Shown here piece by piece: positions 15,379 to 58,172 of a stretch of 64,000 bases of DNA. Position 1 is the first letter of the stretch. Each line of letters opens with the position of its first letter. The notes under the pieces were generated by a model. That model did no database searches. It was not told the DNA's origin and saw only the letters and a program-made list of their open reading frames with translations. Where the stretch lies: positions 2,170,001 to 2,234,000 of the forward strand of contig NZ_CP052909.1 in NCBI RefSeq assembly GCF_014295415.1. The letters are read 5' to 3'. The DNA is from Constantimarinum furrinae. GTDB taxonomy: Bacteria > Bacteroidota > Bacteroidia > Flavobacteriales > Flavobacteriaceae. The translations under genes and the position numbers were made by a program.

Positions 15379-15386
15379 TATTTTTG
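15379..15386 (+). promoter_or_regulatory. Putative -7 box for the cobalamin riboswitch transcript
   Basis: TATTTTTG fits TAnnTTTG and lies just upstream of the conserved aptamer. The -33 element is not obvious. Confidence 0.5.
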
Positions 15387-15389
15387 ATG

Positions 15390-15565
15390 CGAATTCAGGT
15401 GAGCGCAATGCGCGTTCTTAAAAGGGAATTCGGTGAAAAACCGAAGCTGTTCCCGCAACTGTAAGCCTTCCGCGAAAGCGGATCGTGCCACTACATAACC
15501 ACTGTTTTGAATGTACCAAAACGGGAAGGTAGCACCATAGGCGAGCCAGGAGACCTGCCGGATTC
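15390..15565 (+). ncRNA. Cobalamin (adenosylcobalamin-type) riboswitch
   Basis: Conserved blocks occur in order: AGGTGAGCGCAATGCGCG, AAAAGGGAAT, CGGTGAAAAACCG, GCTGTTCCCGCAACTGTAAGC, a variable arm, a TGCCACT segment and GCCAGGAGACCTGCC near the 3' end. This is a complete aptamer. About 115 bases separate it from the receptor start, room for an expression platform. It should repress the B12 receptor when cobalamin is plentiful. Confidence 0.93.
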
Positions 15566-15681
15566 ATAACTATTTTGTCAAACTTTCGGGATAAAGGTTT
15601 GGGAAACATAAACGAACGGTTGTTGCTAACAAACAACCTGCAGTTCTGCTTTCCTTTCTATTTCCGTTTTTAATCTTAAAA

Positions 15682-41685: not shown

Positions 41686-41727
41686 CAAGAATCAAGAACC
41701 AAGAACCAAGATTCAAGAACCAAGAGA
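41686..41727. repeat. Heptanucleotide array, 6 units (CAAGAAC)
   Basis: CAAGAAT, CAAGAAC, CAAGAAC, CAAGATT, CAAGAAC, CAAGAGA in unbroken phase. The unit, read as ACCAAGA, recurs in the tract at 43323-43497. Confidence 0.8.
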
Positions 41728-43322: not shown

Positions 43323-43497
43323 AAGACCGATGACTGAAGACCGAAGCAGGAAGCATGTAGCATCAATTGCAAATAACATGCAACCCGCAACTTGAAACCG
43401 GGATGCAGTGGGCAGTGAGCAGTATGAATCAAGAGACATGAACCAAGAGTCAGGAACCAAGAGCCAAGAGTCAGGAACCAAGAGTCTAGAGTCAAGA
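43323..43497. repeat. Long heptanucleotide-phased tract, 25 units of drifting sequence
   Basis: Starting at 43323 the sequence can be cut every 7 bases as AAGACCG, ATGACTG, AAGACCG, AAGCAGG, AAGCATG, TAGCATC and so on to ACCAAGA, GTCAGGA, ACCAAGA, GCCAAGA, GTCAGGA, ACCAAGA, GTCTAGA, GTCAAGA. The middle units (AATTGCA to TGAAACC) are weak. No gene is supported in the 43035-43566 gap; a minus-strand frame across it is a by-product of the repeats. Confidence 0.7.
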
Positions 43498-43566
43498 ATT
43501 TAAAGAATAATATCCTTTACTCTAAATAATTTGAATAAATAATATTAATAAAGAATAACCAATACA

Positions 43567-49725: not shown

Positions 49726-50634
49726 ATGAATTCAATTAAAACCATTGGGAAGTCATTTTTTTTAGGTCTGAGTATTTTGTTTTTTATGTCAGATCTTCAT
49801 AGTCAGAGTTATAAAAATCTTACGCATTTAAAAGGCGGAAATATTGAAACTTATTATAGTGAAGGGGCACTGGAGCAAGCCGAAGCAATGGCCTTTCTTT
49901 GTGAGAACGTACTTTCTTTTTATAAAACGATCATTGATTTTGAACCCACAGTTACATTGCTTGTACTGTCGCCGACCGATTGGAGTGCGTATACCCATTT
50001 TCCTGTATATGGCATGCCTCATTATCCAAATGCTAAAACACTGGTAGTAGCGTCACAGGACAATGATTTCTGGAAAAGCATGCTCCCACCACTGGATAAT
50101 CTGCCAACCGATCTTGGCAATCAAATTTCTGAAACTTACGTAGACTATAATGGTAAGATCACAATGCGCGCTTTTTTTAATCTGTTGGCGATTCACGAAC
50201 TTGGTCATGCCTATCACGAACAAGGTGGGCTTAGCATGCAACGCAAATGGCTTGGCGAATTATTTTGCAATATGTTTCTTCATACCTTTATAGCTGAAAA
50301 TAGGCCGGAACTATTACCTGCCTTAACGATCTTTCCTAATATGGTCGTATCCTCCACGAGCAGAGAGAGTTTAAAATATTCAACTTTAAATGATTTTGAA
50401 GCCAATTACGGTTTAATCGCAAGCCAACATCCGCAAAATTACGGCTGGTATCAGTGTAGGTTACACACAGCTGCCGGAAACATTTACGATGAAGCCGGTA
50501 TTACTGCATTCAGCAACCTATGGAATACGCTAAAGGCTAATAAAGATCCTATCGACGATGCAGCTTTGGCAGAGCTATTAACTACCCAGGTGCATGAAAG
50601 TGTTGCTCACGTTCAAATGCACTGGAATGACTAG
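49726..50634 (+). CDS. Secreted gluzincin-like zinc metalloprotease candidate
   Basis: The 302-residue protein has a signal peptide (DLHSQ) and a zinc-site HELGH at residues 157-161, with Glu178 in GELFCN 17 residues after the second His, the spacing of a gluzincin third ligand. The N-terminal half (EQAEAMAFLCENVLSFYKTIIDFEPTVTLLVL) resembles the propeptide-like alpha/beta part of similar hypothetical peptidases. I recognise no named family. A metal-dependent hydrolase is likely; the substrate is unknown. Confidence 0.65.
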   Translation: MNSIKTIGKSFFLGLSILFFMSDLHSQSYKNLTHLKGGNIETYYSEGALEQAEAMAFLCENVLSFYKTIIDFEPTVTLLVLSPTDWSAYTHFPVYGMPHYPNAKTLVVASQDNDFWKSMLPPLDNLPTDLGNQISETYVDYNGKITMRAFFNLLAIHELGHAYHEQGGLSMQRKWLGELFCNMFLHTFIAENRPELLPALTIFPNMVVSSTSRESLKYSTLNDFEANYGLIASQHPQNYGWYQCRLHTAAGNIYDEAGITAFSNLWNTLKANKDPIDDAALAELLTTQVHESVAHVQMHWND

Positions 50635-50713
50635 TTTGACGCCCAGTTTATTTAGAGATGTAACATTTTGAAGCTGTAAAATTTATGACCATAGAATTGA
50701 AAATTGACCGTAA

Positions 50714-51295
50714 ATGGTAACAAATCTTTTGTTCATGTCATTATTGGGTATTCTGTTCATTCAATGTTCTATAGACAGGACGATAATTCCAATAAATAAA
50801 GCTGAATTAAAATTACTGAAGGAATTTCAGCAATTGGATTCTGTACATAGCATTCAAATTAGTAGTGAAGACGAGCCTGGACAGAAGCTATGGTTATGCC
50901 TTACTATGGTTTCAAAAAACGGTAAAGCACCTTTAATGAATCAAAAAGTTCATTTGTATCATACCTCCAACAATGGGGATTACGAACCTGCTGACCTGAA
51001 TGACGAATCAACCGCAAGACTAAATGGATTTGCCATTACCGATGCGATGGGGAGGATCTTTGTTCAAACCATCTTGCCCGGTGATTACGGCAGTTCTTCA
51101 GATAATAGACATATCCATACTACTGTTGAAGACGCGATTCCAGAGGCCTACGATATTAATTTCAAGCAGTATACGGGACTATTGGGTAAAAATTTTATCA
51201 AGGGAAGCGATCAGCATTTTATCGCTAATCTGAAACAGACAAAAAACAATACCCTTGTGGTTATCTTAACGATGGAAATAAAAAAAGCGCAATAA
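50714..51295 (+). CDS. Intradiol-dioxygenase-like lipoprotein
   Basis: A lipoprotein signal ends at Cys18 (FIQC). The body has the beta-sandwich layout of intradiol ring-cleavage dioxygenases: NQKVHLYHTSNNGDYEP, LNGFAITDAMGRIFVQTILPGDY and HIHTTV. The four ferric ligands of that family can be placed at Tyr90, Tyr125, His133 and His135, with the HxH spacing conserved. At 193 residues it lacks the N-terminal helical dimer region. It may be a cell-surface enzyme or a non-catalytic relative. It follows the metalloprotease candidate on the same strand after 79 bases. Confidence 0.7.
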   Translation: MVTNLLFMSLLGILFIQCSIDRTIIPINKAELKLLKEFQQLDSVHSIQISSEDEPGQKLWLCLTMVSKNGKAPLMNQKVHLYHTSNNGDYEPADLNDESTARLNGFAITDAMGRIFVQTILPGDYGSSSDNRHIHTTVEDAIPEAYDINFKQYTGLLGKNFIKGSDQHFIANLKQTKNNTLVVILTMEIKKAQ

Positions 51296-51437
51296 CCTTA
51301 ATAGTTAACTTGGGTTATTGGCTTTCTTACGTGATTTTCAACCGTATTTTTTACCTTAAAGGTAATTATATCACTTTCTTTATAGTAGTCACACTGTTTC
51401 AATCGCCTTAAGACAGTAAAAAAATTTAGACGGAAAC

Positions 51438-51941
51438 TCAACCCTGATTGTAAATTATTTCTTCTTCAGGTTTAATATATTCACTCTGATACTTTTCCAG
51501 AAATTTCTTCTGTTTTTCAATCATTTCTTGCCTCAGTTTATCGATATTCATAAAATCCTTTCCGAAATCACTTTTAAAGAAATCATCATCGAAAAACCGA
51601 TCCCCAAAAAGGGTATCCTGAGTAAATATCCCGTGGGTGCTACGGATATTAAAATCGGAAAAGTTAGTAAAAAACCTTGATCTAAAAGATTGTATCAAAC
51701 TATCGCGATCTAGCGTAGAAAGGCTATCCAGATGACTGCTCGAGGACCAGGAATAGATGCTGTCGTATTTGATGAGATTTCCATGCTCGTCAAATTCTTT
51801 ATCAACTTTCCAAATCCCTTTGGGCACTACAGTCTCTTTCTCTTTATTTGCGCCCTGATCTTTGTTTTCAATGTCTGCTTTTTGCCCGTTGCAACTCAAA
51901 CTAATTAAAGCAACGAACCAGTATACCATGTACTTTTTCAT
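51438..51941 (-). CDS. Small acidic lipoprotein of unknown function
   Basis: The preferred start is the ATG at 51941, giving MKKYMVYWFVALISLSC with a lipobox; an in-frame start eight codons upstream would add a charged stretch ahead of the signal. The mature 150 residues are acidic with repeated Asp and Phe (FFDDDFFKSDFGKDFM) and end in a coiled helix (LRQEMIEKQKKFLEKY). No family is recognised. It follows the DUF2158-like gene on the same strand. Confidence 0.65.
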   Translation of the reverse strand: MKKYMVYWFVALISLSCNGQKADIENKDQGANKEKETVVPKGIWKVDKEFDEHGNLIKYDSIYSWSSSSHLDSLSTLDRDSLIQSFRSRFFTNFSDFNIRSTHGIFTQDTLFGDRFFDDDFFKSDFGKDFMNIDKLRQEMIEKQKKFLEKYQSEYIKPEEEIIYNQG

Positions 51942-51977
51942 CGATTTACGTTTTTTGTTCAACAATGTAATGGTGAT

Positions 51978-52208
51978 TTAAACTTTATACAAACCACCGG
52001 TTTCTATCATCTTTATCAATTTGTTTTGGTGTAGCACAGACGCTTTTCGTTCTCCGTTCTCGTACCAAACACATTCTAAAAAAGCATCAAGATAGGTCTC
52101 GTTGAATAGTGAACTTTTCTTTGGAACATATCGCAAGACTTCCATTTTCGGACTCTTTGCTTTTCCCTTCAACTTTACCCAATCTCCGGGTTTAAATTTC
52201 CTAATCAT
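51978..52208 (-). CDS. DUF2158-like small protein (YodC type)
   Basis: The 76-residue protein begins FKPGDWVKLKGKAKSPKMEVLRYV and has AFLECVWYENGERKASVLHQNKL. This is the SH3-like small-barrel pattern of YodC/DUF2158, where a basic strand and a C-x-W motif are typical. It lies between hsp20 and a lipoprotein on the same strand. Function unknown. Confidence 0.7.
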   Translation of the reverse strand: MIRKFKPGDWVKLKGKAKSPKMEVLRYVPKKSSLFNETYLDAFLECVWYENGERKASVLHQNKLIKMIETGGLYKV

Positions 52209-52295
52209 AGCAAAACAATTTAATCAATCCCTATTAAAACGAGGAGGTTGATTCTTCAACCTCCCATTTTAATAAAACCTAAATTAATACAATCA

Positions 52296-52772
52296 TTAAG
52301 AGATTTTAATGGATCTGGCCGGTTGACGCTTAGCCTCTTCTTTTTTAGGGAGAAGAATGCTAAGGATGCCATCCTTATAATTAGCATTAATTTGTTCGTC
52401 GTTTACCGTTTCAGGTAAGGTAAACGTCCTTTTAAAGGAAGAATAACCAAACTCTCTACGAGTGTAATTACCTTCTTTTTGTTCATTTTGTTCCTTGGTT
52501 TCAGTAGAAATTGATAAAACCTGATTGTCCAGTTCAATTTGGAAATCTGATTTCTTTAAGCCCGGAACCGCCATTTCTACCATAAAAGCGTCGTCGCTTT
52601 CTTTTATATTTACTTTTGGCAATGACATACCCGTATTAAAGTTTGACGTAAATACGGAAGGAAGGTCTCTATTAAAGATATCATCTAACCAAGTAGACCA
52701 GCTTGGGAAGTTTACGTTTGAACTAGTGCTTGCTAAACTTCCATTTTTAGGAACACTTACTAAATTGCTCAT
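52296..52772 (-). CDS. Hsp20/alpha-crystallin family small heat shock protein
   Basis: Small heat shock proteins bind unfolding proteins without ATP. The 158-residue protein has an N-terminal region with WLDDIFNRDLPSVF, an alpha-crystallin domain from about residue 50 (PKVNIKESDDAFMVEMAVPGLKKSDFQIEL to YSSFKRTFTLPETVNDEQINANYKDGILSILLPK) and a C-terminal tail with ARSIKIS replacing the usual I-x-I. The 230-base upstream gap gives room for heat-shock control, but no operator was recognised. Confidence 0.93.
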   Translation of the reverse strand: MSNLVSVPKNGSLASTSSNVNFPSWSTWLDDIFNRDLPSVFTSNFNTGMSLPKVNIKESDDAFMVEMAVPGLKKSDFQIELDNQVLSISTETKEQNEQKEGNYTRREFGYSSFKRTFTLPETVNDEQINANYKDGILSILLPKKEEAKRQPARSIKIS

Positions 52773-53017
52773 AATAACAAAAATTTAAATTAAACATTAT
52801 TTCAACACTTAATCCTTTTTAGGATTTCAATAAATTATCGGCAAACAAAATGCCAATTCCGCTTCAGGCATTATAGCCCATTCTTTTAGATGAAAATCTG
52901 TTAAAAAATTTTTAAAGAAGACGAATTTTTGTCACGATTCCCTTATTGAAAATGTCAGGTTGACAGTTTTTTCGGACCATAAGATCTTTTAAATTATTCT
53001 AGTCCATTTTCAGAATT

Positions 53018-54931
53018 CTAGGGTAATTGTAACCGGACGCTGGTTCCCTTTGTATTGGTTGAAATATCTAATAGGGCTCCCAGTTTAGTTGCCCTTGACC
53101 TCATATTCCGGAGTCCGTCGCTACCTGTAGTAACTGTTGACGGATCGTAGCCCTTGCCATTGTCTAATATCTCAATAACAACAGGAGTCTCTGTAATTAC
53201 ACTAATCTTAATTTCACGTGCTTTTGAATGCTTTACTGCATTATTTACAGCTTCCTGAATAATTCGAAAAATATCCATGGTCTTTGCCGGATTTAGTGGA
53301 GTGTCATCATCGCCATTTTTTTCGACCTTAACCGCTATTCCGGTGGTATTTGAAACTTTATGAGCCAGATATCTGATGCGTTCGGTTAGATCTTCCCAGG
53401 AGATTGCATTTCGATTCATCACCCAGATAGTGTCACGTAAGTCGGTAATCGCTTCCTGACTAAAATTTGAAAGTTCAGTTAATTTTTCCTGAGTAACATC
53501 GTTCGATACCCTGTTCATTCCGGAGCCTATATTTTGTGCGGCACTTGCGAGATAAGTAAGTTGAGAGCCAATATTATCGTGTAATTCCTTGGCTATTCGT
53601 TGCCTTTGTTCTTCAAGTTTCTTGTTGTTTTCTACGGTGAGTAAAGCTTCGTTAAGAGATTGTTCCTGTTTTTGATTTTTAATTTTAAGCCGTTGCTCAC
53701 GATAGACTAGAATGCCGATCAGAGCTAGCAACAACGCACCTACACCCAGTAACGTGATGAGAAGACGCTGAAAATCCAAATCTGCCTGTTGTAGTTCGAG
53801 AAGTTGCTCTTTTTCTTTTGTTCTGAATTCAGTTTCCTTGGTTTGTATGATTTCCAAATTTTCTACATTGTGCAAACTATCAATGGCTTTCGAATATCTG
53901 TTAAAAACTTCATCCGCTTCTTGTGGCCTGCCTAATTGCAGCAAGTTTGCGGCTTTATAGAACAGGAATTCTCTATTTCTGAGATCGGATAACTTGTGGA
54001 GATCGGTAATGCTGTCTGCCAACATCACATAGCGAGAAGCTACCACTGGCCGGGACAGCTGATTATTTGCGTAAATAAGTCCGTTAAGCGCTTCAATAAG
54101 CTTAAACGGTTCGAGATTGGACGCAGTACTCATTTCATATGCCTGAGCATAGGCAGCGATACCTTCTTCAAAAAGATCCTGACGAAGGTACACCGAGCCG
54201 ATACACAGTTGATTACCGGCAGCTGCGTAACCGTCATTTTTACGTTTGGCTTCTGCTACTCCTAATTGAAAAATTTCGAGTGCTTTTTCATATTGCATCT
54301 TCTCCATATAGCATATTCCAAGGTTCCAATATGTATGAGCTTTAAATCCCGAATCGAAGTTTTTTTGATGTTCAAGTGAATTTCGAAGATAGGGAATGGC
54401 TTGATCGAAGCGTTCCATATTTAAAAACGCCATCCCAATGTTATTTCCTGCCATTGCCACTGGCTGAACATTATCCGGCATTTTTTGGGCAACGGTGAGA
54501 TATTCGATGAATTGTACGGTTGCGTTGGTATAATCTGACAAATTAGAATAAGCATTTCCGCTGTAGTTCAGCAAGCTGGCTTGCAGTTTTAAATGCCCTA
54601 GAGCTTTAGCAAAAGGCAGTATGGAATCGAGAATATCAATTGCATCTTTATAAGCACCGGCAGCATACAATTTTTTTGCTTGCTGAAATGCGAGCTCCAG
54701 TTCTGCTTCTTTATCGTTTATGCTTTGGGTATATGCAATTCCTTCGGCTAAATATTGTTTAAAAAGCACTGAATCTGATTGCATATAATGCCCTGTAATA
54801 GCCTTATACGCTCCAATCTTCGCTTTGCTGTCTGTAGATGTTAAAATTACCTGTTTGAGACTGTCGATACTTTGGCCGACAGAAAAGAAAGCATTTAGTA
54901 ATAACAGGATGAAGCAAAAAAGTTTAGTCAT
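53018..54931 (-). CDS. TPR-containing sensor histidine kinase (HisKA_3 type)
   Basis: The 637-residue protein has a signal peptide, about six TPR repeats in the periplasm (residues 60-340), one membrane helix (LLITLLGVGALLLALIGILVY), a coiled coil, the HisKA_3 dimerisation helix with the phospho-His in KELHDNIGSQL, and a HATPase_c domain (EAVNNAVKHSKA, DNGKGYD, GLRNMRSRA). This NarX-like class normally pairs with a LuxR-type regulator. None is adjacent, so it is an orphan here. Confidence 0.92.
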   Translation of the reverse strand: MTKLFCFILLLLNAFFSVGQSIDSLKQVILTSTDSKAKIGAYKAITGHYMQSDSVLFKQYLAEGIAYTQSINDKEAELELAFQQAKKLYAAGAYKDAIDILDSILPFAKALGHLKLQASLLNYSGNAYSNLSDYTNATVQFIEYLTVAQKMPDNVQPVAMAGNNIGMAFLNMERFDQAIPYLRNSLEHQKNFDSGFKAHTYWNLGICYMEKMQYEKALEIFQLGVAEAKRKNDGYAAAGNQLCIGSVYLRQDLFEEGIAAYAQAYEMSTASNLEPFKLIEALNGLIYANNQLSRPVVASRYVMLADSITDLHKLSDLRNREFLFYKAANLLQLGRPQEADEVFNRYSKAIDSLHNVENLEIIQTKETEFRTKEKEQLLELQQADLDFQRLLITLLGVGALLLALIGILVYREQRLKIKNQKQEQSLNEALLTVENNKKLEEQRQRIAKELHDNIGSQLTYLASAAQNIGSGMNRVSNDVTQEKLTELSNFSQEAITDLRDTIWVMNRNAISWEDLTERIRYLAHKVSNTTGIAVKVEKNGDDDTPLNPAKTMDIFRIIQEAVNNAVKHSKAREIKISVITETPVVIEILDNGKGYDPSTVTTGSDGLRNMRSRATKLGALLDISTNTKGTSVRLQLP

Positions 54932-55063
54932 ACATGATGCTTTTTGCTAAGATAAAATTTTTGACGTTACGTACAACGGCGTCTTATATATCTGAATACC
55001 GCAAATTGTCTAGATTGCAAGGAGTTGAATTCAAAATAATCCCACGATGCAGACAGAGGAGAA

Positions 55064-55580
55064 GAATTACCTCTTGAAGCTCGGTGAGTCTTTCGAAGGG
55101 GAGCTATACAAGCTCAAACCCAAACACTTCATGTTCGGTTCTTTCAATTTCAAAATTCGATTAAGAAGGAGAATTACCTCGCGAAGCTCGGTGAGTCTTT
55201 CGAAGGGGAGCTATACAAGCTCAAACCCAAACACTTCGTGTTCGGTTCTTTCAATTTCAAAATTCGATTAAGAAGGAAAATTACCTCGCGAAGCTCGGTG
55301 AGTCTTTCGAAGGGGAGCTATACAAGCTCAAACCCAAACACTTCGTGTTCGGTTCTTTCAATTTCAAAATTCGATTAAGAAGGAGAATTACCTCGCGAAG
55401 CTCGGTGAGTCTTTCGAAGGGGAGCTATACAAGATCAAACCCAAACACTTCGTGTTCGGTTCTTTCACTTTCAAAATTCGATTAAGAAGGAGAATTACCT
55501 CGCGAAGCTCGGTGAGTCTTTCGAAGGGGAGCTATACAAGATCAAACCCAAACACTTCGTGTTCGGTTCTTTCAATTCCA
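55064..55580. repeat. Five-copy tandem repeat, 107-bp unit
   Basis: The block AAGCTCGGTGAGTCTTTCGA recurs five times with exact 107-base spacing (the TCGG at 55081, 55188, 55295, 55402 and 55509). Units are nearly identical from end to end, without variable spacers. Each unit holds an AGCTC/GAGCT hairpin and an AACAC-TTC-GTGTT hairpin followed by a T-rich run. The first three copies read CAAGCTCAAACCC and the last two CAAGATCAAACCC, the latter identical to the tRNA-Met flank in inverted orientation. 107 is not a multiple of three, so the array is not a coding repeat. Confidence 0.93.
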
Positions 55581-55618
55581 TTAGAACGTAAAAGCAAGTT
55601 TTCGTTCACGGAATTGAA

Positions 55619-55644
55619 AAACCCGATACTGTCGTATCGGGTTT
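55619..55644 (-). terminator. Intrinsic terminator of tRNA-Met
   Basis: AAACCCGATAC (55619-55629) and GTATCGGGTTT (55634-55644) are perfectly complementary over 11 bp with a four-base loop. On the minus strand the stem is followed by a short T-run. Confidence 0.88.
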
Positions 55645-55651
55645 GATCTTG

Positions 55652-55725
55652 TAGCGAGAAGGAGACTTGAACTCCTGACCTCCGGGTTATGAATCCGACG
55701 CTCTAACCACCTGAGCTACCTCGCC
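55652..55725 (-). tRNA. tRNA-Met (anticodon CAU)
   Basis: The minus strand folds as a complete 74-base tRNA: acceptor GGCGAGG paired with TCTCGCT (G-U at both ends of the stem), D arm AGCTCAGGTGGTTAGAGC, anticodon stem-loop with CAT in GGATTCATAACCC, and T arm AGGAGTTCAAGTCTCCT. The discriminator is A and CCA is not encoded. A first G-U pair and absence of the three G-C pairs of initiator tRNA suggest elongator Met; a tRNA-Ile with lysidine-modified CAU cannot be excluded. Confidence 0.92.
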
Positions 55726-55740
55726 GTATTTTTCGGTTTG

Positions 55741-55771
55741 CAAATATAGAAACAAATTGACTTGCCGCAAA
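55741..55771 (-). promoter_or_regulatory. tRNA-Met promoter, Bacteroidota consensus
   Basis: On the minus strand TTTG (55771-55768) and TATATTTG (55748-55741) are separated by exactly 19 bases, 15 bases before the tRNA 5' end. Confidence 0.88.
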
Positions 55772-55897
55772 CAATCAATTCACTTTTATTACCGAATTGC
55801 ACTATCATATTGTAAATTTTATCGTCTAAATATTGTAGTTCTTTCTTTCCCAGTTTGTAATAAATATATATATTGGGCTTCGGCTAACTAATAAAAT

Positions 55898-56284
55898 ATG
55901 GAGGACAAAATAAAATACGAGATGGAGTTTCCAATACATGTATCTCCCTCACTTTTATATCAGTATATTTCTACTCCTTCGGGAATGAGTGAATGGTATG
56001 CAGACAATGTAAACTCCAGAGGTGAGTTTTTTACTTTTATATGGGAAGGAAGTGAAGAAAAGGCGAAACTTCTAAGTAAAAAAAGCCCGGAACGAATAAA
56101 ATTTAAATGGTTGGAAGACGCTGAAACCGATTACTATTTTGAATTGAGAATTCAGGTAGATGAAATTACGAAAGATGTTTCCTTAATGGTAACCGATTTT
56201 GCCGAAGAAGATGAGGTTGATGAAGGAAAAATGCTTTGGGAAAATATGATCTCGAATCTCAAACAGATTTTAGGTTCTTCTTAG
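55898..56284 (+). CDS. START-like domain protein (AHSA1/SRPBCC type)
   Basis: The 128-residue protein has the START-like pattern EFPIHVSPSLLYQYISTPSGMSEWYADNVN, FTFIWEGSEEKAKLL and a final helix MLWENMISNLKQIL. This short type is highly conserved in Bacteroidota and likely binds a hydrophobic ligand or helps a partner. It has no signal peptide. It ends 53 bases before the hairpin that precedes the aminotransferase gene. Confidence 0.9.
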   Translation: MEDKIKYEMEFPIHVSPSLLYQYISTPSGMSEWYADNVNSRGEFFTFIWEGSEEKAKLLSKKSPERIKFKWLEDAETDYYFELRIQVDEITKDVSLMVTDFAEEDEVDEGKMLWENMISNLKQILGSS

Positions 56285-56326
56285 AATACCGTATGGAATC
56301 CATTCTTTAATGGATTTTAAATATAG

Positions 56327-56334
56327 TATCTTTG
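56327..56334 (+). promoter_or_regulatory. Putative -7 box for the class IV aminotransferase gene
   Basis: TATCTTTG matches TAnnTTTG. Transcription would begin about 56340, inside the left arm of the following hairpin. Confidence 0.55.
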
Positions 56335-56336
56335 CG

Positions 56337-56365
56337 CCGTCTCACTGAAAAGAGACGGTTTTTTT
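56337..56365 (+). terminator. Terminator-like hairpin directly before the aminotransferase ATG
   Basis: CCGTCTC (56337-56343) and GAGACGG (56352-56358) form a 7-bp stem with an 8-base loop, followed by seven T residues that end at the base before the ATG. It most likely terminates the START-like gene transcript. Confidence 0.75.
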
Positions 56366-57211
56366 ATGGTCAATTTCAACGGTACGCTTTTAGAAAATGA
56401 AAATGCATTTTTAGATCCTTCAAACCGGGGGCTTCATTATGGTGATGCCTTGTTTGAAACGATAAAAGTATCGGGAGGTAAGATCCTGTTCTGGGAAGAT
56501 CATTATTTCAGACTTATGGCCTCTATGCGGATACTGCGCATGGAAATACCCATGACTTTTACGCTTGAATTTCTGGAAGAACAAATTTTTAAAACGCTTC
56601 GGGCGAAATCGCAGCTTTCAAATACATTTCGGGTTAAGTTATTGGTATGGCGTAAAGTAGGGGGTAAGTATACTCCAAAAGATCGGGATGTAGAATTCTT
56701 AATTTCCTATGAAGAGATCACCACACCTTTCTATATACTTGAGGAATCTTTTTACGAGATAGAACTTTTTAAAGATCACTATATCACTTCGGGATTGCTT
56801 TCTACCTTAAAGTCGAATAACAGGATCATTAATGTATTGGGTAGTATTTACGCTGAAGAAAACGAATACGACAATTGTTTGTTGCTCAATGAAAATAAAC
56901 AGGTGGTGGAAGCTCTTAATGGAAACATCTTCCTCGTTAATGGCTATAAGATCAAGACTCCTCCGTTGAACGATGGTTGTTTAAATGGTATTCTTCGAAA
57001 ACAGATCATTGCTATTTTAGGGCAGATGCCCGACTATATATTAGAGGAAACTTCTGTCTCTCCTTTTGAGTTGCAAAAGGCAGATGAACTGTTTATCACG
57101 AATGTGATTCAAGGAATACGCCCCGTCTCTAAATACCGAAAAAAGGAATATTCCAATGCGGTCGTTAAAGAATTACTCGCTAAACTGAATGTAAAGGCAA
57201 GGATGGGTTAG
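56366..57211 (+). CDS. Class IV aminotransferase (branched-chain / ADC lyase family)
   Basis: The 281-residue PLP enzyme has the class IV layout: FLDPSNRGLHYGDALFETIKVSGGKILFWEDHYFRL at the N-terminus, the lysine in STLKSNNRI (PLP Schiff base), and the EALNGNIFLVNG and ETSVSPFELQKADELFITN segments. It could be a branched-chain aminotransferase, D-amino acid aminotransferase or 4-amino-4-deoxychorismate lyase; the sequence alone does not decide. The ATG directly follows a T-run. Its stop is shared with yqgE. Confidence 0.88.
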   Translation: MVNFNGTLLENENAFLDPSNRGLHYGDALFETIKVSGGKILFWEDHYFRLMASMRILRMEIPMTFTLEFLEEQIFKTLRAKSQLSNTFRVKLLVWRKVGGKYTPKDRDVEFLISYEEITTPFYILEESFYEIELFKDHYITSGLLSTLKSNNRIINVLGSIYAEENEYDNCLLLNENKQVVEALNGNIFLVNGYKIKTPPLNDGCLNGILRKQIIAILGQMPDYILEETSVSPFELQKADELFITNVIQGIRPVSKYRKKEYSNAVVKELLAKLNVKARMG

Positions 57212-57768
57212 TTGTAGGTTGGATTTTCAGGGGCATTTGACCAGATCACATAATCTCCTCCAAATTCGATCATTTTTTCCTTCCAAAAATTGCTGTAGGA
57301 TTTACCTAGGATTTCATTCTTGTAATTATTAGGCACAACCACCCAGCTATTCACTTCCAGTTCCTGTTCTAATTGTTCACTCGCCCAACCTGAGTACCCT
57401 AAAAAGAAACGTATCTGATCTTTTTTTAAGCTGTCATTCTCCAGCAATCCTAATATAGCATTAAAATCTCCACCCCAGTAGATACCGTTGCTTATTTCTA
57501 CACTATCCGGAATGAGTTCCGGTATGCGATGAATAAAATATAAATTATCCTGTTCTACGGGTCCGCCATTATACACGGGCAGATTACAATTAATTTCAGG
57601 GATAAAATCCTTGAGTTTGTATTTAAGCGGTTTGTTGAGAATAAAGCCAACCGAACCTTCTACATTATATTCGGCTAATAACACCACAGACCTATTAAAG
57701 GAAACATCGCCGATTATAGAAGGTTCAGCGACCAGAAGAACTCCTTTTTCAGGTTTTAACGTAGTCAT
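57208..57768 (-). CDS. YqgE/AlgH family protein
   Basis: The 186-residue protein has the UPF0301/AlgH pattern: KGVLLVAEPSIIGDVSFNRSVVLLAEYNVEGSVGFILNKPL, VYNGGPVEQDNLYFIH, and FFLGYSGWASEQLEQELEVNSWVV. The family is widespread and its function is not settled. It is convergent with the aminotransferase gene, sharing the tetranucleotide TTAG. Confidence 0.95.
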   Translation of the reverse strand: MTTLKPEKGVLLVAEPSIIGDVSFNRSVVLLAEYNVEGSVGFILNKPLKYKLKDFIPEINCNLPVYNGGPVEQDNLYFIHRIPELIPDSVEISNGIYWGGDFNAILGLLENDSLKKDQIRFFLGYSGWASEQLEQELEVNSWVVVPNNYKNEILGKSYSNFWKEKMIEFGGDYVIWSNAPENPTYN

Positions 57769-57848
57769 TTGGTGCGTTTAGTTAATTAAATCTAAGTATT
57801 AATTTTATAAAAAGCAACAACTACGGGCTTTCTTATGAATTAGAGCAT

Positions 57849-57878
57849 AAAAAAACCCTGCTTTCGAGCAGGGTTTTT
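57849..57878 (-). terminator. Terminator of the HU gene, bidirectional
   Basis: CCCTGCT (57856-57862) and AGCAGGG (57867-57873) form a stem with a TTCG tetraloop, flanked by an A-run on the left and a T-run on the right, so it can act on both strands. On the minus strand it lies 22 bases after the HU stop. Confidence 0.9.
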
Positions 57879-57899
57879 ATCAAAACGTATTTCTTACAA

Positions 57900-58172
57900 T
57901 TAGTTTACACTGTTTTGTAAATCCGATCCCGCTTTAAATTTTACTACATTTTTTGCAGCGATTTTAATAGTTTTACCGGTTTGTGGGTTTCTTCCTTCTC
58001 TAGCAGCTCTTCTGGAAACTGACCAAGAACCAAAACCTACTAAAGAAACTCTTTTACCTTTTTTAAGAGATTTTTCTACATTTCCTAAGAAAGATTCAAG
58101 TGCTTTTTTTGCAGCAGCTTTTGTGATTCCGGCATCTTCAGCCATTCCGTCGATTAAATCTGATTTGTTCAT
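57900..58172 (-). CDS. HU family DNA-binding protein
   Basis: HU bends and compacts DNA. The 90-residue protein has the full fold: NKSDLIDGMAEDAGITKAAAKKALESFL, GKRVSLVGFGSWSVSRRAAREGRNPQTGKTI with the beta-arm Arg-Asn-Pro, and AAKNVVKFKAGSDLQNSVN. It is monocistronic with its own promoter and terminator. Confidence 0.97.
   Translation of the reverse strand: MNKSDLIDGMAEDAGITKAAAKKALESFLGNVEKSLKKGKRVSLVGFGSWSVSRRAAREGRNPQTGKTIKIAAKNVVKFKAGSDLQNSVN

Follow-up and report, generated by a model that had tools for sequence, protein, structure and literature searches.

We analyzed a 64,000-nt stretch of the Constantimarinum furrinae genome (the window), in which a tRNA-Met(cat) gene occupies positions 55651 to 55725 on the minus strand (ARAGORN; Rfam RF00005, 60.4 bits). 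On the 3' side of the gene, 74 nt beyond its end, TRF detected a tandem array with a period of 107 bp, 4.8 copies, 98% matches, and 0% indels (55063 to 55577, no strand assigned), confirming the five near-identical units reported in the first-pass annotation of this DNA. When the unit was searched against the 2.99-Mb genome (E ≤ 0.001), the five units of this single site were the sole matches, the last one over 89 bp.

The last two units share the 15-mer TACAAGATCAAACCC, which recurs inverted and 100% complementary beside tRNA-Met, exactly as first described, and a longer match connects 55563 to 55579 with 55610 to 55626 (88% complementary across 17 nt). The earlier view that the array and the tRNA flank are convergent copies of one module was nearly right, except that the 15-mer represents both inverted-repeat arms inside one element. 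The left arm comprises the last bases of tRNA-Met and its trailer (55639 to 55653, minus strand), and the right arm lies on the plus strand in the tRNA-proximal unit (55535 to 55549) and again in the next one (55428 to 55442). A first hairpin past tRNA-Met (AAACCCGATAC..GTATCGGGTTT, then T-rich; 55618 to 55644, minus strand) was read by eye; it looks terminator-like and is paired in a computed fold, and it is absent from the output of the terminator scan. It is followed by a central hairpin with a CUUG-type loop (55584 to 55607, minus strand), recognized by sequence reading and by a family test, which recurs behind other tRNAs.

Each unit also contains a conserved module on the plus strand, scored with a covariance model (R1) described below: 55487 to 55542 in the proximal unit (55.7 bits; this sequence was part of the training set of R1), 55380 to 55435 in the fourth (55.7 bits), 55273 to 55327 in the third (43.9 bits), 55166 to 55219 in the second (52.3 bits), and 55059 to 55112 in the first, distal unit, the outer end of which is degenerate (40.2 bits). 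In the proximal unit, where covariation supports it, the module consists of a hairpin, GAGA.A.UUACC..GGUGA.G.UCUU, and a G-rich stretch. At the unit junction (55485 to 55493, minus strand), we found TCTCCTTCT, a 9-nt copy of the 3' strand of the tRNA-Met T-stem; this is the longest stretch of the tRNA end that the array retains, the remainder being gone.

Single units folded no better than shuffled sequences (two units, each folded on both strands; z scores of -1.01, -1.16, 0.77, and -1.09), and energy alone therefore gives no support to the two hairpins per unit that had been proposed. The suggestion that the units are tandem terminators or a short repeated RNA was not borne out either: a terminator scan returned terminator-like sites in two units, on the minus strand only, and a scan for sigma-70-type promoters, which does not cover Bacteroidota promoters, found none within the array. 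Near the array, nothing but the tRNA attained an Rfam gathering score; the RtT family (RF00391) had no match in the window and none around the array even at E ≤ 1, and phage and plasmid collections gave no match to the array. The array is overlapped by two ORFs of 74 and 64 aa, which we attribute to chance. A coding array was rejected, as anticipated, because 107 is not divisible by 3 and because the module frames differ among relatives, where they contain stops. Elsewhere in the window, we noted tandem repeats of heptamers (AGTCCGA and others, some scored as period 14 or 21) at 217 to 335, 928 to 968, 41686 to 41725, and 43424 to 43498 and a cobalamin riboswitch at 15380 to 15576 (RF00174, 104 bits).

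The tRNA-Met module in relatives and its conserved hairpin

Relatives of the START-like ORF that adjoins tRNA-Met were present at 233 loci, of which we took the best 80, the nearest being from Flavobacteriaceae; ARAGORN located tRNA-Met in 74 of these. A diverged module adjoins tRNA-Met in 7 of the 80 loci (L020, L022, L023, L025, L026, L082, and L074). In the tRNA sense, its parts run from the tRNA end through the trailer to a hairpin, the central hairpin, and a second hairpin and then through the inverted trailer and a C-rich stretch to the conserved hairpin and T-stem sequence. Judged by eye, the inverted trailer agrees well with the tRNA-Met trailer of its own genome in the window, L082, L074, and L022 and more poorly in L025 and L026, and in some relatives the two arms differ in sequence yet still match each other. 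The far end in L020, L025, and L114 repeats the tRNA 3' end, completely or almost so, with terminator-like sequence behind it. Tandem modules at tRNA-Met were also observed in L082 (3463 to 3664) and L115 (1030 to 1674), with a stem swapped through compensatory changes and with fixed outer bases.

An exact pattern of the module proved too strict, occurring in only two of 397 genomes. Model R1, a covariance model built from these modules (nine sequences in all), strongly finds the module in only the same 7 of 80 loci. Run over the 397 genomes of the family, it gave 36 matches in 21 genomes (E ≤ 0.01), 30 of which were examined as loci. Nineteen of them adjoin a complete tRNA-Met, one a tRNA-Met 3' half (L116), and two a tRNA-Tyr (ARAGORN). 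One lies ∼290 nt from a tRNA-Leu, two are on one short contig from a genome having an array at tRNA-Met, and five weak matches (E of 0.001 to 0.007) are without a tRNA. Eight of the 19 tRNA-Met loci come from genomes that supplied training sequences (G000, which is C. furrinae itself, G089, G283, and G193, with G012 assigned by sequence). Among the 22 loci outside the training genomes, 11 have a complete tRNA-Met, 7 are without a tRNA in the sequence inspected, and 1 is the locus near tRNA-Leu. Seven nontraining genomes carry the module at tRNA-Met (G365, G117, G062, G203, G204, G312, and G077); G232 has it at a tRNA-Met 3' half, and G142 and G189 have it at tRNA-Tyr, the latter two matches (both E = 0.0025) being as weak as some of those lacking a tRNA. 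The first-pass annotation had proposed looking for the unit near tRNA genes; the exact unit is unique in its genome, but diverged modules do occur near tRNAs elsewhere, which leaves its idea unrefuted.

The conserved hairpin precedes the tRNA-end copies, and its foot is complementary to the 3' strand of the T-stem. We assessed its covariation on 42 matches from 19 chosen loci, aligned to R1 in an alignment that leans towards the structure. Paired cells reached 93.5%, versus 33 to 57% for slid versions of the structure (at most 56.6%); cells with two-sided changes numbered 24, versus 0 to 3; and the covariation score was 0.227, versus ≤0.059. For each of these three measures, none of 500 shuffles was as high. 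The number of pairs with a two-sided change (40/500 shuffles) and the number of further pair types (123/500) were not outstanding. In 37 of 40 rows, a U.G pair is conserved, an observation that favors folding of the strand opposite the tRNA.

Under a strict rule, the hairpin occurs on that opposite strand in 12 of the 37 tRNA 3' flanks of C. furrinae, versus 3 on the tRNA strand and 5 on the 5' side. We compared three relatives, Halomarinibacterium sedimenti CAU 1614 (G397), a MAG (G398), and Ulvibacter litoralis (G399), where the opposite strand and the tRNA strand had 5 versus 7, 8 versus 3, and 2 versus 2 hairpins, respectively; there is no such strand bias in H. sedimenti. These counts overlap, since neighboring tRNAs share flanks, and a few of the 12 flanks (such as that of Ala) look like chance. 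Seven of the 14 tRNA genes with an array (see below) are among the 12.

Arrays and tRNA-end copies across tRNA genes

We scanned stretches around all 37 tRNA genes of C. furrinae (25 loci, 72 kb) and found a 3' tandem array at 14 of them, 5 to 235 nt from the tRNA end; the remaining 23 had none. The unit differs from one tRNA's array to the next. Expressed as period × copies, the arrays are 119 × 2.1 at Leu(taa), 207 × 2.5 at Leu(gag), 41 × 2.0 and 39 × 2.3 at Tyr, 69 × 8.7 at Val(gac), 91 × 7.5 at Phe, 82 × 9.4 at Arg(tct), 84 × 2.4 at Pro(ggg), 78 × 8.7 at Asp, 45 × 9.1 at Gln, 48 × 5.0 at Arg(acg) (also 24 × 9.2 and 168 × 2.1), 151 × 1.9 at His, 86 × 7.9 at Arg(tcg), 61 × 4.6 at Ser(gga), and 107 × 4.8 at Met. 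Copy number exceeds 4 at 9 of the 14 tRNAs and is about two at 5. Twenty tRNA-free control stretches of the same genome (400 kb) yielded two arrays of period ≥24, 25 × 1.9 (L172) and 263 × 1.8 (L181), which places the Met array above chance; the 263-bp repeat (16215 to 16694 of L181) overlaps the 3' end of the tmRNA gene (ssrA). The earlier proposal that the units are remnants of tRNA-linked insertions is supported both by these different arrays behind other tRNAs and by the diverged modules at tRNA-Met of other genera. Arrays were rare in the relatives, draft assemblies in which arrays may be collapsed: we found one at Val(gac) of the MAG and two in U. litoralis, at Leu(tag) and at one Met, and the rows in H. 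sedimenti lie 5' of tRNA-Arg(tcg) and 0.7 kb from tRNA-Asp.

The central, CUUG-type hairpin was found ≤250 nt 3' of 15 of 37 tRNA genes in C. furrinae, 5 of 35 in H. sedimenti, 7 of 33 in the MAG, and 0 of 35 in U. litoralis. In the same order, the counts were 1, 2, 1, and 0 on the other strand and 4, 2, 2, and 0 upstream; the control contained 43 per 800,000 strand-bases, or 0.013 per 250 nt.

We then looked for copies of each tRNA's own 3' end, defined as an exact match of ≥12 nt to its last 20 nt within the 800 nt beyond the gene, for the 140 tRNA genes (ARAGORN) in the stretches taken from the four genomes (G400 was left out of all counts). Such copies follow 15 of the 140 genes (3/37 in C. 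furrinae and 4/35, 7/33, and 1/35 in H. sedimenti, the MAG, and U. litoralis, respectively), and mismatched tRNA/flank pairs gave 0 of 4,596. Over equal spans of ≤230 nt, the copy was present on the 3' side of 14 genes and on the 5' side of none (n = 140). Ten of the 15 copies begin at nt 57 to 60, in the T-loop, and 14 extend to the last nucleotide of the tRNA; one of the 15, in L226, is part of a GIY-YIG element. In C. furrinae itself, a 12-nt copy is restricted to the 3 flanks counted above, and an exact 7-mer test of T-stem copies (9 observed versus 3.1 expected) was weak because many T-stems are alike.

Proposed insertion at the T-arm and candidate enzymes

Two comparisons suggest insertion at the tRNA. 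At tRNA-Met, L025 and L043 differ by 168 bp; the far junction in L025 consists of the tRNA end, with one mismatch, and the trailer of L043, and the alignment of the flank past the junction extends, with gaps, as far as the next gene and into it. They form a filled and empty pair, which we infer to have arisen by gain, not loss, of an element. At tRNA-Pro(ggg) of C. furrinae, two different elements stand in series: nt 3 to 129 are 91% identical to the single element of the MAG, and nt 129 to 254 are 90% identical to the single element of H. sedimenti. Together, the pair and the series point, at the level of sequence comparison, to elements that would be mobile.

These observations bear on the simplest alternative, a plain minisatellite, in which slippage in hairpin-rich tRNA trailers would have produced each array from its own flank with no mobile element. 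Units that are near identical within an array and unlike between tRNAs fit this explanation, as do the short direct repeats at the unit ends, which are good slippage sites, and the fact that the E. coli analogue varies in copy number (see below). However, the minisatellite explains neither the near restriction of arrays to tRNA and tmRNA 3' ends nor the covarying hairpin common to tRNA-Met and tRNA-Tyr flanks nor the frequency of the CUUG-type hairpin behind tRNA genes relative to the control. Slippage alone is also hard to reconcile with the tRNA-Pro series, in which the two elements are different, and we regard this origin as unlikely.

Our preferred reading, which we consider probable though far from certain, is that the Met array arose by amplification of what remains of a miniature noncoding element that targets the T-arm of tRNA (and tmRNA) genes. 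The miniature elements that we read are noncoding and about 110 to 170 bp long. Such an element would enter the T-loop near nt 57/58 of a tRNA or tmRNA gene and bring or copy the tRNA 3' end, so that the tRNA stays intact. In the tRNA sense, a full element comprises the tRNA 3' end, the trailer (left arm), a hairpin, the central CUUG-type hairpin, a second hairpin, the inverted trailer (right arm), a C-rich stretch, the hairpin with its foot complementary to the T-stem, and the tRNA 3' end once more, beyond which lies the old trailer. Older elements would be pushed outward by newer ones, and short direct repeats would permit gain and loss of units via slippage or recombination, which may have led to the homogeneous 107-bp array.

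Other elements are also found at tRNA genes. In H. sedimenti (contig C8, 141250 to 210225, L264 to L267), the tRNA-Met 3' end is present four times in one orientation, at spacings of 24, 33, and 12 kb, with a tyrosine integrase ORF at the first copy and a miniature element after the third. These copies are probably serial islands. Islands that integrate into tRNA genes by means of a tyrosine integrase likewise split and restore the tRNA, as they appear to have done at this tRNA-Met. In contrast to the miniature elements, which mostly start in the T-loop, these copies lie 12 to 33 kb apart and the duplicated block begins near the anticodon loop, for which reason we rejected the islands as the source of the array.

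GIY-YIG-like ORFs directly follow tRNA-Met in L083 (3034 to 3734, with two tandem copies), L020, L045, L059, and L073; Pfam was run on, and confirmed, only the protein of L020. They are followed by a copy of about nt 27 to 75 of the tRNA, in which the anticodon arm carries a TCCGCC..GGCGGA hairpin. Since the duplicated part of the tRNA starts at the anticodon arm in these elements, they are of a different kind, and we rejected the array as a remnant of one. A mirror image of the tRNA-Met case is found in L099 (1430 to 1740; near 2488925 of the C. furrinae genome), where a GIY-YIG ORF (Pfam) is located between tRNA-Ser(gct) and tRNA-Pro(tgg) and is preceded by a modified copy of the 5' portion of tRNA-Pro.

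As for the enzyme, C. furrinae encodes four tyrosine recombinases: XerD (342.8 bits; cut-off, 329.6), an XerC-like protein (309.2 bits, under the cut-off of 335), a phage-type protein, and a 387-aa protein (G000:C1:1785210) that falls just under the XerA_Arch cut-off (217.8 bits of 220). Against the integron integrase family TIGR02249 (cut-off, 265), the 387-aa protein scored 194.3 bits, XerD scored 150.5, and the XerC-like protein scored 118.4, and the phage-type recombinase had no match at E ≤ 0.001. The gene for the 387-aa recombinase is at least 50 kb from every one of the 37 tRNA genes, and we propose the protein only as a candidate for the enzyme of the element.

One rival reading is an integron-like system, in which the hairpins would serve as attC-like sites, the T-loop as the entry point, and a recombinase such as the 387-aa protein as the integrase. 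The topology is similar: tandem units are each closed by an imperfect hairpin at a fixed junction, and the newest unit would sit at the entry site, as the tRNA-Pro series suggests. The integron integrase is also the second-best NCBIfam match of the 387-aa protein, which matches the integrase IntI4 (2a3v) in third rank after two Xer proteins. Against this, the protein remains below the integron integrase cut-off, none of the 10 neighboring proteins (49726 to 58172) has an integrase domain, and the units, shorter than genes, hold no cassette genes. The attC R' consensus is GTTRRRY. This motif is absent from the array, and its two matches in L167 are both outside the array. Moreover, E. coli K-12 carries the same kind of array and, to our knowledge, has no integron integrase. 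We therefore consider an integron-like origin of the Met array very unlikely. A broader version would make tRNA genes the genome-wide entry sites of gene-free, integron-like cassettes of 24 to 207 bp, which a tyrosine recombinase would join by their hairpins to the T-loop of tRNA and tmRNA genes and which would gather behind many tRNAs, the E. coli repeats being an old branch; we offer it as an unlikely speculation.

IS200/IS605 and REP elements provide another analogy, being small and having a terminal hairpin with conserved mismatches, the foot of which pairs with the target strand. However, the C. furrinae genome has no Y1 transposase (0 matches to PF01797 at E ≤ 0.001), and we rejected this enzyme for C. 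furrinae; related genomes may encode one that acts in trans.

Relation to the tyrT/tyrV repeats of E. coli

In E. coli K-12, 3.0 units of 178 bp lie behind tyrV, each closing with the 19 terminal nt of tRNA-Tyr (A58 to CCA), and one more unit lies between tyrT and tyrV; a control search in E. coli gave four RF00391 matches. These RtT units have a hairpin foot (GAAGG..CCTTC) that is the complement of the T-stem. The units are absent from strain 4973, and one is present in LZSFT34, with a similar outer trailer. Some part of the RtT region matches 5,375 of 5,426 E. coli genomes, and none to four annotated RtT units lie under the match among the 60 matches listed. Rows of a table on Salmonella include a 175-bp VNTR at rtT RNA and a 220-bp VNTR at a tRNA-Gly (PMC2658671). 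Among the matches listed from open-access full-text literature, no title concerned arrays of this kind in Bacteroidota.

In both systems, tandem units are located 3' of a tRNA, starting from the first base after the tRNA in E. coli and at 74 nt in the Met array, and a hairpin foot complementary to the T-stem lies ahead of a tRNA-end copy. That copy runs from A58 in RtT units, whereas 9 nt remain in the Met array and fuller copies are found in L020, L025, L114, and at other tRNAs. The tRNA, the sequence, and the unit length are different, and the window has no RF00391 match. The arrays described here thus have the anatomy of RtT in common with E. coli, not its sequence. They were found at 14 of 37 tRNA genes in C. 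furrinae, whereas in E. coli the tRNA-Tyr locus alone was looked at.

RtT units have been suggested to act as a functional RNA, and RefSeq annotates RtT as an sRNA that is released from the tyrT transcript by processing. If the same held here, the units would be a functional RNA or a series of terminators under selection, and the covariation does support a structured strand. Yet the array lacks a sigma-70-type promoter, its units fold no better than shuffles, an E. coli strain (4973) lives without any unit at tRNA-Tyr, and the relatives of C. furrinae have few arrays, all of which makes selection for such a function improbable.

The Met array belongs to a class of noncoding, tRNA-linked arrays of the tyrT/RtT kind, which in this single genome accompany more than one-third of the tRNA genes. 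We know of no earlier counterpart that would have made the E. coli tyrT repeats anything but an isolated oddity. The same anatomy behind many tRNAs, the single and serial elements, and an apparently empty site suggest a general class of gene-free T-arm elements, whose origin and mechanism can now be tested with the help of a target site, a naturally occurring series of copy numbers, and a candidate recombinase.
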